Assembly (NCBI GenBank): GCA_017881265.1
Contig: JADGRA010000063.1
Coordinates: forward strand, 1-52,562
Origin: Myxococcaceae bacterium
Lineage (GTDB): Bacteria; Myxococcota; Myxococcia; Myxococcales; Myxococcaceae
Direction: 5' to 3'
DNA: 52,562 nt
Made by a program: the position numbers and the translations under genes. Numbering within the stretch: the stretch's first letter is position 1; the number at the start of each line of letters is the position of its first letter. The notes beneath the pieces were generated by a model that saw only the letters and a list, made by a program, of their open reading frames with translations, made no database searches and was not told the origin of the DNA. This document shows, piece by piece, positions 36,246 to 44,370 of the stretch.

Positions 36246-37709
36246 ATGCCAGCGGCAGTCGTCGACGCAAGACTCTTCTCGCTGGCGATGCTGACGCTCG
36301 TGGCCTGCTCAAGTTCGTCCTCTCCCACCATGATGACGCGCGCCCAGCTTCTTGACCCGCAGGCGTGCCAGGGCTGCCATCCGGACCAGTACTCTCAGTG
36401 GTCCGGCAGCATGCATGCGTACTCGTCCAAGGACCCCGTCTTTCGCGCCATGAACCAGCGTGGGCAGCGGGAGACTTCCGGGCAGTTGGGCCCCTTCTGC
36501 GTCAAGTGCCACGCGCCCATGGCAGTCCACGAAGGGGCCACCACCGACGGCTTGAATCTCGACCAGCTGCCCGAGCAGCTCCACGGGGTGACGTGCTTCT
36601 TCTGCCATTCGGTGGCGAGTGTCGATGGCGTTCACAACAATCCACTGACGCTGGCGTCCGACAATGTTCTCCGAGGCTCCTTCGCGGACCCCTTGGTGGC
36701 GGGGCGGTCGCACCTGGCCGACTACTCTGCTCTCATCGACCGGCAGACCGCGGCCTCGGCAAGCATGTGTGGCGCGTGCCATGACATTCAGGCGCCTCCA
36801 GGCGGAAACATCGAACGCACCTTTCAAGAATGGCAGGCGACTGCGTTCCCCGCTGTCTTGGGCAACACCTGCGCCCAATGCCACATGCCCCAGAGCACCG
36901 AACTGGTTGCTGTCGCCAAAGTTCCGAATGCGCCGCTGCGCAGAGCCCACGACCATTCGAGTCCGGGTGTCGACGTCGCTCTGACCGATTTCCCGAACAA
37001 GCCTGAGCAACTGAACCTCGTTCAAGCCTCCTTGAACCCCACACTGCAAACGGCGATTTGTGTGGAGCGGTTCGCTGGTGGTTCGAAGGTCAGCCTGATT
37101 GTGGATAACGCGGCCGCCGGCCACTCCTTTCCGAGTGGCTCGGCGCAGGACCGACGCGCTTGGTTTGAGCTCACCGCGTACGTTGCTTCGAATGTGGTGT
37201 ATTCATCGGGAGCCGTCCCCGCCGGCACTCCGGTCGTGTCGAGCCCGGATCCGGACCTCTGGTTGCTACGAGATTGTATGTTCGACGGGACAGGCGCCCA
37301 AGTGGACATGTTTTGGCAGGCGGCCTCTTACGAGGGCAACGCGCTTCCAGCGATTGTCACTTTTGATATCTCGAGCCCCGACTTCTATCTCGGCCACAAG
37401 CAGCGGTATTTCCCCCCGTCGGGCTCGCCGATTACCACCCCAGACCGAATTACGCTCAAGGTGCACGTTACGCCGATCGGGCTAGATGTCCTGGACGACC
37501 TGATCGCAAGTGGCGATCTCGACGCCGGCCTGCGAGGCCTGATGCCGACCTTCGACGTCGGCGACACCCTGGAGTGGACCCCTGATGCCGGAACACATAC
37601 CTATGTCGATCGTGACACGGGGGGACTCGTGTTCTGTGCGACGACCACGAGTCTCAACGTGCAGGCAGACAAGTTCCCGGCACCCGTGAAGACGCATTGC
37701 TCGCCATAG
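36246..37709 (+). CDS. Pentahaem c-type cytochrome lipoprotein (cytochrome c554-like)
   Basis: A 487-residue exported protein with lipoprotein signal LAMLTLVACSSSSS. Five CxxCH motifs lie in the first half: CQGCH, CVKCH, CFFCH, CGACH and CAQCH. The opening ACQGCHPDQYSQWSGSMHA is typical of cytochrome c554-like multihaem proteins, whose members transfer electrons or reduce small molecules such as hydroxylamine. The second half (from about residue 250) has no haem motif and appears beta-rich, with SLIVDNAAAGHSFPSG near its start. ATG 36246 is preceded by GAGGGG nine bases upstream. It is the last gene of the operon begun at 34778. Confidence 0.82.
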   Translation: MPAAVVDARLFSLAMLTLVACSSSSSPTMMTRAQLLDPQACQGCHPDQYSQWSGSMHAYSSKDPVFRAMNQRGQRETSGQLGPFCVKCHAPMAVHEGATTDGLNLDQLPEQLHGVTCFFCHSVASVDGVHNNPLTLASDNVLRGSFADPLVAGRSHLADYSALIDRQTAASASMCGACHDIQAPPGGNIERTFQEWQATAFPAVLGNTCAQCHMPQSTELVAVAKVPNAPLRRAHDHSSPGVDVALTDFPNKPEQLNLVQASLNPTLQTAICVERFAGGSKVSLIVDNAAAGHSFPSGSAQDRRAWFELTAYVASNVVYSSGAVPAGTPVVSSPDPDLWLLRDCMFDGTGAQVDMFWQAASYEGNALPAIVTFDISSPDFYLGHKQRYFPPSGSPITTPDRITLKVHVTPIGLDVLDDLIASGDLDAGLRGLMPTFDVGDTLEWTPDAGTHTYVDRDTGGLVFCATTTSLNVQADKFPAPVKTHCSP

Positions 37710-37754: not shown

Positions 37755-37922
37755 GCGTCTTTGCGAGCCCTGCGACGTGCCGAAGCCCGACCGCAGGCCC
37801 ATGAAGATGCTTCGCTCCACGTGTGCTGGGTGCAATAGATGACAGGTTTTCAAGCCCAGACGCGCCCCGCCGAGCGCCGCCAGATGCGGTCGGCAGAACG
37901 GACTGCTGGAGCGGAGGACGAG

Positions 37923-39521
37923 GTGACTAATCCGAGGGCTTGGCTCAGACAGGTATTCGTCACGGCGCTTGCGCTCATCCCGGCCGGGGCTCTGGCCGAG
38001 GCGCCAGGCGTGGCGGTCTCCAAGGATACCGGCCAAATCCTCAAATCACCGCTCTCGGGCGTCCTCATGCACCGGTCGCCGGCGGCCGATTTCAAGCCAA
38101 CGGCTGCCTACCAATGGCTCGAGCTATTGCTGGAAGCCTCCGGTCGTGACGCAGTCCGAAACCTGCCGCGCCCGACGGTCCTCTCACGGACGGACGCGAT
38201 TGTCCTCACGGCCATGTACGACGCGTGGGCTCCCTACGACGAAAAGGCCATTGGGACCCGGCTCGGTCCGAAGCTGCGGCGACCCCAGAGCGAGCGCACG
38301 TTGGTCAACAAGGAGAAGGCCATCGCCTTTGCCGCATACCGCGCATTGCTCTTCGTCTATCCAGAGGAGGCAAGTTGGGTCCGCCAGCAGTTCCAGGCGA
38401 TGGGCTTTGACCCCAACGACAGTTCCACCGACGTGAGGACGCCAGAGGGCATCGGCAACGTCGCCGCGAGCGCGTTGATTGAGTACCGCAAGCACGACGG
38501 CTCCAATCAACTGGGAGACGAGCCGGGCGGCGACGGAACGCCATATGCTGACTACACCGGCTACAAGCCGGTGAACACTGCCCAGAAGCTTGTTGATCCG
38601 ATTCGCTGGCTGCCGATCCCTTTTTCGGACGGTAAGGGGGGCACGGTCACGCCGGGGTACCTGAGCGCCCAGTGGGGCAAAGTGACGCCCTTCGCGCTGG
38701 AGCGCCCCGACCATTTTCGCCCGCCCCCGCCTCCAGCCTGGGGCTCGCCGTCGTTGAACGCCGACATCGAGGAGGCGGTTCGCGTGAACGCCAATCTCAC
38801 CCTGCAACAGAAGGCCACCGTGGAGTTCATGCGCGAAGGGCCGCGCTCAACTGGCCAATCCGGACACTGGCTACAGTTCGCAGAGGACGTGTCGCGGCGC
38901 GACCACGATGATCTCGATCGGGACATCAAGCTCTTCTTCTCTGTCGGCAACGTGGTGATGGATGCCTTCATCGCTTGCTGGGACTCCAAGCGCGCGTACG
39001 ACGCCAGTCGCCCCTATTGGTGGGCCCAGCTCTATTACAAGGGGAAGCGAATTGAGGGGTGGGCAGGCCCCGGGCAGGGCACCAAGAAGATCGCCGCAGA
39101 GGATTGGCGCCCATACTCGCCGGCGACATTTGTGACGCCTCCGTTTCCCGGCTACGTGTCGGGCCACGCCACCGCCAGCGGGGCAGCGTCGCGGATGCTG
39201 GAGCTGTTCACGGGCAGCGACCGCTTCGGCGTCGTCACGTTCCAGCAGGCTGGGTACATCACGGCAGAGGCCGGCTTCCCGACTTCACAAATGCAAGCCC
39301 GCGACGGGAAGGTTGCAGCAGACGTCCCTGACTCCAAGGAAGTCCAACTCTCCATGCCCACCTTCACATCGACGGCCGAGATGGCTGCCATGTCACGTCT
39401 CTGGGGTGGCTACCATGTCCGCGTCGACAACGAGGAAGGCCTCATCCTCGGACGCAAGATTGCGATGTACAGCTGGCCGAAGTACCAAGCCTATTTCGAC
39501 GGCACGGCGAAAGTGCCGTGA
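37923..39521 (+). CDS. Secreted vanadium-dependent haloperoxidase/PAP2-like protein
   Basis: A 532-residue protein with a signal peptide (VFVTALALIPAGALAEA). The C-terminal half carries the vanadate/phosphate-binding signature PPFPGYVSGHATASGAASRM, where SGH supplies the Ser-Gly-His anion-binding loop, and SRLWGGYHVRVDNEEG, where Arg and His are further conserved ligand residues. An upstream Lys/Arg-containing DSKRAYDASRPYWWAQ completes the pocket. This is the arrangement of vanadium-dependent haloperoxidase relatives; some members are phosphatases, so activity cannot be read off directly. GTG 37923 is chosen because GGAGG lies five bases upstream and the signal peptide follows; ATG 37839 would give an implausible hydrophilic leader. 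Confidence 0.83.
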   Translation: MTNPRAWLRQVFVTALALIPAGALAEAPGVAVSKDTGQILKSPLSGVLMHRSPAADFKPTAAYQWLELLLEASGRDAVRNLPRPTVLSRTDAIVLTAMYDAWAPYDEKAIGTRLGPKLRRPQSERTLVNKEKAIAFAAYRALLFVYPEEASWVRQQFQAMGFDPNDSSTDVRTPEGIGNVAASALIEYRKHDGSNQLGDEPGGDGTPYADYTGYKPVNTAQKLVDPIRWLPIPFSDGKGGTVTPGYLSAQWGKVTPFALERPDHFRPPPPPAWGSPSLNADIEEAVRVNANLTLQQKATVEFMREGPRSTGQSGHWLQFAEDVSRRDHDDLDRDIKLFFSVGNVVMDAFIACWDSKRAYDASRPYWWAQLYYKGKRIEGWAGPGQGTKKIAAEDWRPYSPATFVTPPFPGYVSGHATASGAASRMLELFTGSDRFGVVTFQQAGYITAEAGFPTSQMQARDGKVAADVPDSKEVQLSMPTFTSTAEMAAMSRLWGGYHVRVDNEEGLILGRKIAMYSWPKYQAYFDGTAKVP

Positions 39522-39540: not shown

Positions 39541-40185
39541 TTATAGATGCCCATCCGCGAACCTCTCAGCGAGCCAGCGTTCGACTTCCTCCGGATGGTA
39601 GTCGAACGGCCCGGGGCCTCCCTTGTACCGAATGACGCCGTTCTCGATGATGTAAAGGCGCTCAGGCCATCCCGCATACAGACGGTTGGCCTGATTGTCG
39701 AGCGGATCGACCAGAAGCGGGATGTCGTAGTTGAAGCGCTTGACGAAGTCGCTTGCGATGGCAACCCGCTGCTCAGTGGTGCGCGGCTGCAAATAACAGA
39801 CGTCCTCCGTCTTGTTCGCAGGCATTTGCCATTCGTCAGTGGGATGTGCCTCCTTAATATAGAGCGTGAGAAAATCCGCGCGCGACGCGTACTTCGCGTG
39901 GAGGGCCTTTAGACGCTCGACCGAGCGCCGAAACGGGGGTCAAGTGAAACTGCCAAAAATCAAGACCGTCGGTTTCGGAGAGAGGCGGTCGAGGAGGCGG
40001 ACCCGTGCACCGTCTGTCGTGGTGAGTTCCACGTCTGGTGCGCGGTCGCCAACCACGAGCGCGCCCTGGCTCCGGCTGTCGTAGCGTGCCATCCCGATGA
40101 TGTTGCGGGGGCCGATCACCACCACGACGCCCACAACCAGGAGCAAGAAAAGCGCGCCCAAGGCCGTGACGAGCTTCCGTCGCAT
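39541..40185 (-). CDS. Iodothyronine-deiodinase-like selenoprotein (in-frame TGA = Sec82)
   Basis: Read through the TGA at 39942-39940 this is one 214-residue protein; read as a stop it is two pieces. Residues 8-25 are an N-terminal membrane anchor. A thioredoxin fold follows, with LIFGSFT-U-PPFRRSVERL, where animal deiodinases have FGSCTUPPF. LTLYIKEAHPTDEW and PERLYIIENGVIRYKGGPGP also closely match deiodinases, including the EAH catalytic stretch. The TGA is the exact position of the catalytic selenocysteine. A strong hairpin begins seven bases after it. The frame is unbroken before and after, arguing against a pseudogene. It would reduce an unknown substrate outside the cytoplasm. The Sec machinery (selABCD) is not in this window. 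Confidence 0.88.
39908..39933 (-). promoter_or_regulatory. Bacterial SECIS-like hairpin downstream of the Sec codon
   Basis: On the minus strand, TTT-C-GGCGCTC-GGTC-GAGCGTC-T-AAA: a seven-pair stem, counting one G-U pair, closes a GGTC tetraloop, and after a C/T mismatch three more T-A pairs extend it. The first loop G is the 18th base after TGA. Bacterial SECIS elements need a small apical loop with a G at its start roughly 16-37 bases after UGA, so this fits well. It lies inside the coding sequence, as expected in bacteria. Confidence 0.75.
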
Positions 40186-42882: not shown

Positions 42883-43125
42883 CGACGCGGCACTCTTCCC
42901 CAGGGAGGACCCCGATGAAACTCATTTCGACGCCGGAGAGGCGTCACCAGGGGGGGCCCCACGGGCCCTCGGCCGAGCGGCTTGTTACTTCGGGCGCCCG
43001 TGGTCGGCCCGAGTAGAGCCAACACCAAGGCATTCACCGGAGCGGACCTGGCGAGCGTAGAGCTGGCCCGGAGGTGCTGCTCGCCCACTCCTTGGCCTCG
43101 AGGGGCTGTAGCATGCTCAGGTTCC

Positions 43126-44370
43126 GTGGACCTCCTCGACCGTCCGGAGTGGCGTTTGGCCGTCGCGGTCGGGATTGGCTTGGTTGTTGGCGCTGAACGC
43201 GAACGCCGCAAGGGTCAGGGCCGAAACCGCAGCGCCGCTGGAGTCCGCACTTTTGCCCTCGCCGCGGCGCTCGGTGGCGTGGCCTTTCACCTGGGCGCGG
43301 CGGTCACCGCCGCCTTCGCTCTCGTCGTCGGCGGGGCGTCCGTGCTCGCCTATGCGCTCGGCGACCGGAGCGACCCCGGACTCACCACCGAGATTGCGCT
43401 CGTCCTGACGTTCGGGCTCGGAGTGCTTGCCCAATCGGAGCCGCGTGCAGCGCTGGCGGTCGGCCTCCTCAGTACCGCACTGCTCGCGTACCGGCGCGAC
43501 TTGCACCGCATCGTCCGGGGCGTCCTCACGCAGCGGGAATTGCTCGACCTGCTGATTCTTGGCGTCTCGGCGCTGGTTGTCCTTCCGATGCTTCCTGACC
43601 ACGCGCTCGACCCGTTGGGTGCGGTGAATCCCCACCGAATCTGGAGACTCGCTGTGGTGATGATGGCGCTGACCGGGGGCGGCTATGTCGCGCAGCGACT
43701 GGCTGGCGCCCGCGTCGGGCTCGCCGTCTCAGGGTTGGCCTCGGGCTTCGTTTCCGCCTCAGCCACGGTAAGCAGCATGGCGGCCCTCGCGCGAAGTTCG
43801 CCGGCGCTGCTTGGCCCCGCGGCCGCCGGTGCGAGCGCTTCAATGGTCGCGACCTTCCTTCAGATGATGATCCTCGTCGGCTCGGCGAGCCCGGCGCTGC
43901 TGCGGGCCGCCGTCCTGCCGCTCGGCGCGGGCGCTGCGACGGCGCTCTTGTATGCGGCGGTGCAGACGATGCTGGCTGGGCGCAACGGGCATATGGAGGC
44001 GCCGAAAGGCCGAGCCTTCAACATACGGATGGCGCTTGGCTTTGCCCTACTGGTGACCGGGGTGGACGTGGCCGCCACGCTGGCTCAGCGGTGGCTCGGG
44101 ACTGGCGGGTTGGTCGGTACAACCGCGCTGGCCGGGTTTGCCGATGCGCACGCGCCGTCGGCGGCGGTCGCCTCGCTCGTTGCCAGCGGCGAGCTGTCGC
44201 CGCAACTCGGGCTCCTGGCGATGCTGACGGCGTTTAGTGCCAACACAGTCACGAAGGCCATTCTCGCCTGGCAGGGCGGGAGCGCTGCATTCCGGAGACG
44301 AGTGCTCCTCGGTCTCGGGTTGGTGTTGGCGGCCGTGTGGGGCGGCTTCGCGGCGCTGCAGTTCCTGTGA
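43126..44370 (+). CDS. DUF4010/MgtC-like inner-membrane protein
   Basis: A 414-residue polytopic membrane protein. The N-terminal RLAVAVGIGLVVGAERERRKG matches the first helix and loop of MgtC/SapB-type proteins, and AAGVRTFALAAALGGVAFHLG the next segment. The second half, with GLASGFVSASATVSSMAALAR and FADAHAPSAAVASLVASGEL plus FSANTVTKAILAW, matches the DUF4010 domain. Function is not established; MgtC relatives affect magnesium homeostasis. GTG 43126 is chosen because family similarity starts right after it; the frame is open upstream to 42982 with an unrelated Cys/Arg-rich leader. Confidence 0.82.
   Translation: MDLLDRPEWRLAVAVGIGLVVGAERERRKGQGRNRSAAGVRTFALAAALGGVAFHLGAAVTAAFALVVGGASVLAYALGDRSDPGLTTEIALVLTFGLGVLAQSEPRAALAVGLLSTALLAYRRDLHRIVRGVLTQRELLDLLILGVSALVVLPMLPDHALDPLGAVNPHRIWRLAVVMMALTGGGYVAQRLAGARVGLAVSGLASGFVSASATVSSMAALARSSPALLGPAAAGASASMVATFLQMMILVGSASPALLRAAVLPLGAGAATALLYAAVQTMLAGRNGHMEAPKGRAFNIRMALGFALLVTGVDVAATLAQRWLGTGGLVGTTALAGFADAHAPSAAVASLVASGELSPQLGLLAMLTAFSANTVTKAILAWQGGSAAFRRRVLLGLGLVLAAVWGGFAALQFL

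Follow-up and report, generated by a model that had tools for sequence, protein, structure and literature searches.

On the minus strand of the window, by which we mean the whole 52,562-nucleotide stretch analysed, lies a gene for a deiodinase-like protein whose reading frame is interrupted by TGA at codon 82 only. The features of the gene and its surroundings are:

39541-40185, minus strand: deiodinase-like selenoprotein gene of 214 residues, TAA stop at 39543-39541 (translation with TGA as U, PF00837, predicted fold)
39940-39942, minus strand: in-frame TGA read as selenocysteine 82 in FGSFT-U-PPF (codon conserved in relatives)
39912-39929, minus strand: bacterial SECIS-type hairpin, 7-bp stem GGCGCTC/GAGCGTC, loop GGTC (from folding; kept in selenocysteine but not cysteine members)
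40114-40173, minus strand: predicted N-terminal transmembrane anchor following MRRK, residues 5-24 (hydropathy averaging 3.0 across 19 residues; model helix 2-24)
39829-39852, minus strand: deiodinase-specific motif EAHPTDEW, residues 112-119 (E112, H114 and W119 invariant)
39796-39798, minus strand: Cys130, proposed resolving partner of Sec82 and sole other cysteine of the domain
37839-39521, plus strand: vanadium-chloroperoxidase-like protein (DUF6851, VCPO_2nd, PGYVSGHA motif)
36246-37709, plus strand: multihaem cytochrome c554-like protein (weak matches to ExtKL and UshA-like (seleno)protein models)
42982-44370, plus strand: MgtC and DUF4010 membrane protein

Under translation table 11, 40185-39541 on the minus strand yields two open reading frames of 81 and 94 amino acids, the breakage by automated annotation that the first-pass annotation had anticipated. 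Read with TGA 39942-39940 as selenocysteine, the two frames join, as it had proposed, into a single 214-residue protein, MRRK...FGSFTUPPFRR...EAHPTDEW...PERLYIIENGVIRYKGGPGPFDY, which contains all of the motifs claimed for it (FGSFT-U-PPF, EAHPTDEW and PERLYIIENGVIRYKGGPGPFDY). The suggested alignment to PF00837 (T4_deiodinase) gave a match over residues 45-206 with an E-value of 2.2e-40 and 138.9 bits, above the curated cut-off of 27, with weaker profile matches to AhpC-TSA (9e-8) and Redoxin (5e-7); the nearest solved structures by sequence are mouse Dio2 (1.3e-30) and Dio3 (7e-27). NCBIfam NF038285 (deiodinase family protein, deiodinase_rel) matches residues 45-205 (E 1e-53), but its 182.8 bits fall short of the 250-bit cut-off and the alignment takes in just the latter half of the model's 347 positions, so the protein does not belong to that equivalog. 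A profile search of the genome returned this gene (131.6 bits) as its only PF00837 member.

Relatives were sought in 84,980 species genomes, using as query an alignment of the protein with two mouse Dio domains; 293 were found, and the best 80 were retained. A few unrelated thioredoxin-like loci that also entered the raw tally are not part of the counts given here. Amongst these, the codon aligned with residue 82 is TGA in 63 and cysteine (TGC or TGT) in 17, so that a TGA conserved at the redox position is accompanied by cysteine in other homologues, and the TGA-carrying relatives span Myxococcota, Acidobacteriota, Planctomycetota, Verrucomicrobiota, Chloroflexota and Armatimonadota. The closest of them, where a cysteine codon or a disruptive indel would have spoken for a stop or a sequencing error, keep the TGA.

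Downstream of the TGA, positions 39929-39923 pair with 39918-39912 to enclose the GGTC loop (39922-39919). The first-pass annotation had correctly described this stem and loop and placed the loop G at the 18th base after the TGA; the stem begins ten bases after it, not seven. Considered alone, the hairpin is unexceptional given the high G+C content of the sequence: an equal pair count is reached in 7.7% of synonymous shuffles, and its minimum free energy is not below theirs, so the hairpin was rightly identified, yet is not proof of itself, and an Rfam search of the window gave no match above threshold. The evidence for the element lies instead in its conservation across relatives, as judged by comparative sequence analysis. 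Scored over seven pairs, taking the better of two loop sizes, against synonymous codon shuffling, the 64 selenocysteine members (63 from the best 80 of 293 relatives, plus the window) average 5.78 of 7 pairs as against 4.15 when shuffled, whilst the 17 cysteine members from the same 80 average 3.35 as against 3.24 (Mann-Whitney p 7e-9 for selenocysteine versus cysteine forms, indicative only, as the rows are related). Sliding the 3' arm weakens pairing in selenocysteine members: a one-base slide, which coincides in part with the other loop size, gives 5.2, and the remaining slides give 3.0-3.9. The nearest relatives retain the hairpin of the window, with a compensated change of a C-G pair to T-A in one (L049); in other members the stem sequence differs, pairing is mostly retained and the loop has three bases. 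A G occupies the apical loop at column 21 in 58 of the 64 selenocysteine members.

The genome carrying the gene (4.4 Mb in 81 contigs, 96% complete) encodes the full selenocysteine machinery, for which the first-pass annotation had advised looking and whose lack, in selB and tRNA-Sec, would have told against it. A tRNA-Sec gene (selC) scores above the Rfam cut-off, with ARAGORN agreeing on anticodon TCA; selA is present, as is selB, whose product has the GTPase domain plus wing-2 and wing-3, the domains responsible for SECIS binding; and selD is itself a selenoprotein gene, with an in-frame TGA in the active site HCAG-U-AAK (L019, contig C49:106875-107807). UGA 82 would thus be decoded by SelB and tRNA-Sec with the aid of the downstream hairpin, as these conserved parts suggest. 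That the TGA is instead a true stop, a sequencing error or the remnant of a pseudogene is very improbable: standard annotation does call a stop there, and the hairpin of the window by itself is nothing unusual, but 63 other genome records carry TGA at the same codon, the frame is open on either side and the machinery is complete, which together argue strongly against it. The gene almost certainly encodes a true selenoprotein, a bacterial member of the deiodinase (PF00837) family, and the evidence supports the earlier selenoprotein reading, family assignment and SECIS alike.

The closest sequences among the best 80 of 293 relatives are from a Myxococcales MAG (70% identity) and then three Polyangium strains (63-67%; L043-L045), followed by Planctomycetota and Acidobacteriota; in 194 other genomes of the same phylum, a profile search gave partial, weak matches only (best 33.6 bits). 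The tree pairs the window protein with that of the Myxococcales MAG (support 99/92) inside a well-supported group of eight in which Myxococcota and Planctomycetota are mixed, a pattern that suggests horizontal transfer. A search of viral contigs found no relative, and one of plasmids a single 29% match, from Mycolicibacterium. Cysteine forms make up one group, adjoining three selenocysteine forms with UGP instead of UPP; these three, all from Planctomycetota (L098, L105, L106), read UGPF or UGPY beside CGPF cysteine forms, an exchange of selenocysteine and cysteine in one clade. Animal deiodinases occupy a separate long branch in a tree without an outgroup, so we make no claim as to their origin.

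The AlphaFold2 model (mean pLDDT 93.9) is best matched by Dio2 (9h48, Z 23.3) and Dio3 (4tr3, Z 23.2) over 170 residues, and then, at Z 14.5-16, by ResA, DsbE, CcmG, AhpE and Bcp (the highest at 15.9). The predicted structure is thus of thioredoxin/peroxiredoxin type with the deiodinase-specific insertion that bears EAHPTDEW; a fold shared with Dio2 and Dio3 demonstrates no function. An anchor, signal peptide or lipobox-like start is found in most relatives inspected, and from MRRK and the helix that follows we infer that the thioredoxin/peroxiredoxin-like domain most likely faces the periplasm.

Much of the deiodinase active site is retained. E112, H114 and W119 are invariant in 81 bacterial members (the best 80 of 293 relatives plus the window) as well as in Dio2 and Dio3, and among the residues defined in the Dio2 structure paper (Ser127, Thr129, Tyr157, Glu160, His162, Trp167 and His182; PMC11592359), the first six align with S79, T81, Y109, E112, H114 and W119. 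The proton relay is nevertheless incomplete: serine, threonine, tyrosine, glutamate and the first histidine are kept, but the position of His182 is occupied by Pro134 here and by proline or alanine in all 81 bacterial members. The basic substrate clamp (K241 in Dio2, R275 in Dio3) is likewise absent, Pro191 taking its place, and selenocysteine members mostly have methionine, proline or glutamine there; in cysteine forms the residue is arginine, so loss of the clamp is not universal among bacterial members. Pro174 was also considered as a contrast with animals, Dio2 and Dio3 having phenylalanine, and was dropped because Dio1 also has proline (PMC11592359).

As most relay residues near the selenocysteine are kept, the site would also be suited to reductive dehalogenation, in which Sec82 would remove iodide or bromide from phenols or tyrosine derivatives that carry halogens, as animal deiodinases do with thyroid hormone, perhaps acting on products of the neighbouring haloperoxidase-like protein. 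Conservation of UPPF with S79, T81, Y109, E112, H114 and W119 and the Dio2/Dio3 fold match speak for such an enzyme, as does the vanadium-chloroperoxidase-like gene at 37839-39521, which is convergent with the selenoprotein gene and only 20 bp away. That linkage, however suggestive, was set aside: by tblastn, none of the best 80 of 293 relatives has a similar haloperoxidase close to its gene, and with the second histidine replaced in all 81 members and the clamp by proline, we regard a true reductive dehalogenase as unlikely.

A second cysteine occurs in every one of the 64 selenocysteine members, at position 130 in 38 and at 147 and/or 148 in 26, never both kinds, a complementary pattern such as would be expected of a resolving cysteine; C147 is also present in 16 of the 17 cysteine forms. 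The members with C130 form a single clade (support 92/60) comprising 38 of the 81, the window included, with an N-terminal anchor and Cys130 in 38 of 38. As the pattern tracks the tree, the alternative positions may have arisen by one change. None of the 64 has a cysteine at +3 of the selenocysteine, the motif being U-P/G-P-F/Y. Another candidate function is that of a selenium-dependent thiol:disulfide oxidoreductase of ResA/TlpA/CcmG type acting on proteins, for example in cytochrome or copper-protein assembly. The next-ranking fold matches include periplasmic ResA, CcmG and DsbE, and UPPF-R aligns with the CPPC-R of such proteins (3kcm alignment), but the vicinal second cysteine of CPPC is replaced by phenylalanine, the partner cysteine lies far off in sequence and the gene's neighbours in relatives show no recurring cytochrome or copper genes; this role, too, seems improbable.

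We favour, at roughly even confidence for the mechanism as a whole, an extracytoplasmic, membrane-anchored peroxidase or thiol oxidoreductase that works through Sec82 and Cys130 and is fed by DsbD; here we infer both chemistry and reductant. With its N-terminal helix anchoring it in the membrane and its domain in the periplasm, the enzyme would use Sec82, tuned by Ser79, Thr81, Tyr109, Glu112 and His114, to attack a substrate that is oxidised or electrophilic; we think an aryl iodide less likely here than a peroxide or a small sulfur species in oxidised form. Oxidised Sec82 would then form a selenenylsulfide with Cys130, to be reduced through a DsbD-fed periplasmic thiol relay; a DsbD-type transporter is encoded in the genome, and a peroxiredoxin-like intramolecular selenenylsulfide cascade has been proposed for animal deiodinases (PMC11592359). 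That the Cys130 clade comprises periplasmic, membrane-anchored selenoenzymes that dehalogenate aromatics (reductive deiodination or debromination) with an active site of the animal thyroid-hormone kind we consider doubtful.

In 2005, deiodinase-like bacterial proteins with selenocysteine and cysteine were described from the Sargasso Sea and a redox role was suggested (Zhang et al. 2005, PMC1088965); they were counted again in 2008 (PMC2398784) and are listed with the motif UxxC in reviews of 2022 and 2026 (PMC9312934, PMC13188914), the latter calling the roles of such proteins largely unknown. The gene is a new member of this family, with which it shares the PF00837 domain, the in-frame TGA with a bacterial SECIS and the occurrence of both forms; in contrast to the published UxxC, there is no cysteine at +3, the candidate partner being at 130 or 147/148. 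With mouse Dio2 (9h48) and Dio3 (4tr3) it has in common FGSxTUPPF, the EAHPxDxW insertion, GGxGP, a single N-terminal anchor and the thioredoxin/peroxiredoxin fold (Z 23), but it lacks the His182 and basic clamp residues of animal deiodinases, and its SECIS is within the coding region, shortly downstream of the UGA, rather than in the 3' UTR. As far as the papers found tell, a clade with Cys130 and a membrane anchor has not been described. These results extend selenocysteine-dependent deiodinase-like proteins from marine reads to named genomes such as the Polyangium strains. Mutants that alter either of the two candidate partner cysteines, or residues of the partly conserved active site, would be a concrete means of probing bacterial function, which bears in turn on what animal deiodinases may derive from.

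Neighbouring genes are not conserved, so gene context names no substrate. Many Acidobacteriota copies sit behind what we take, by eye, to be pyrG, kdsA, kdsD, kdsC and ppa; an operon inference was rejected, as these neighbourhoods have nothing in common with that of the window. The cytochrome c554-like gene at 36246-37709 (plus strand) contains no in-frame TGA. A second, weaker vanadium-chloroperoxidase-like copy is present on contig C29 of the same genome.
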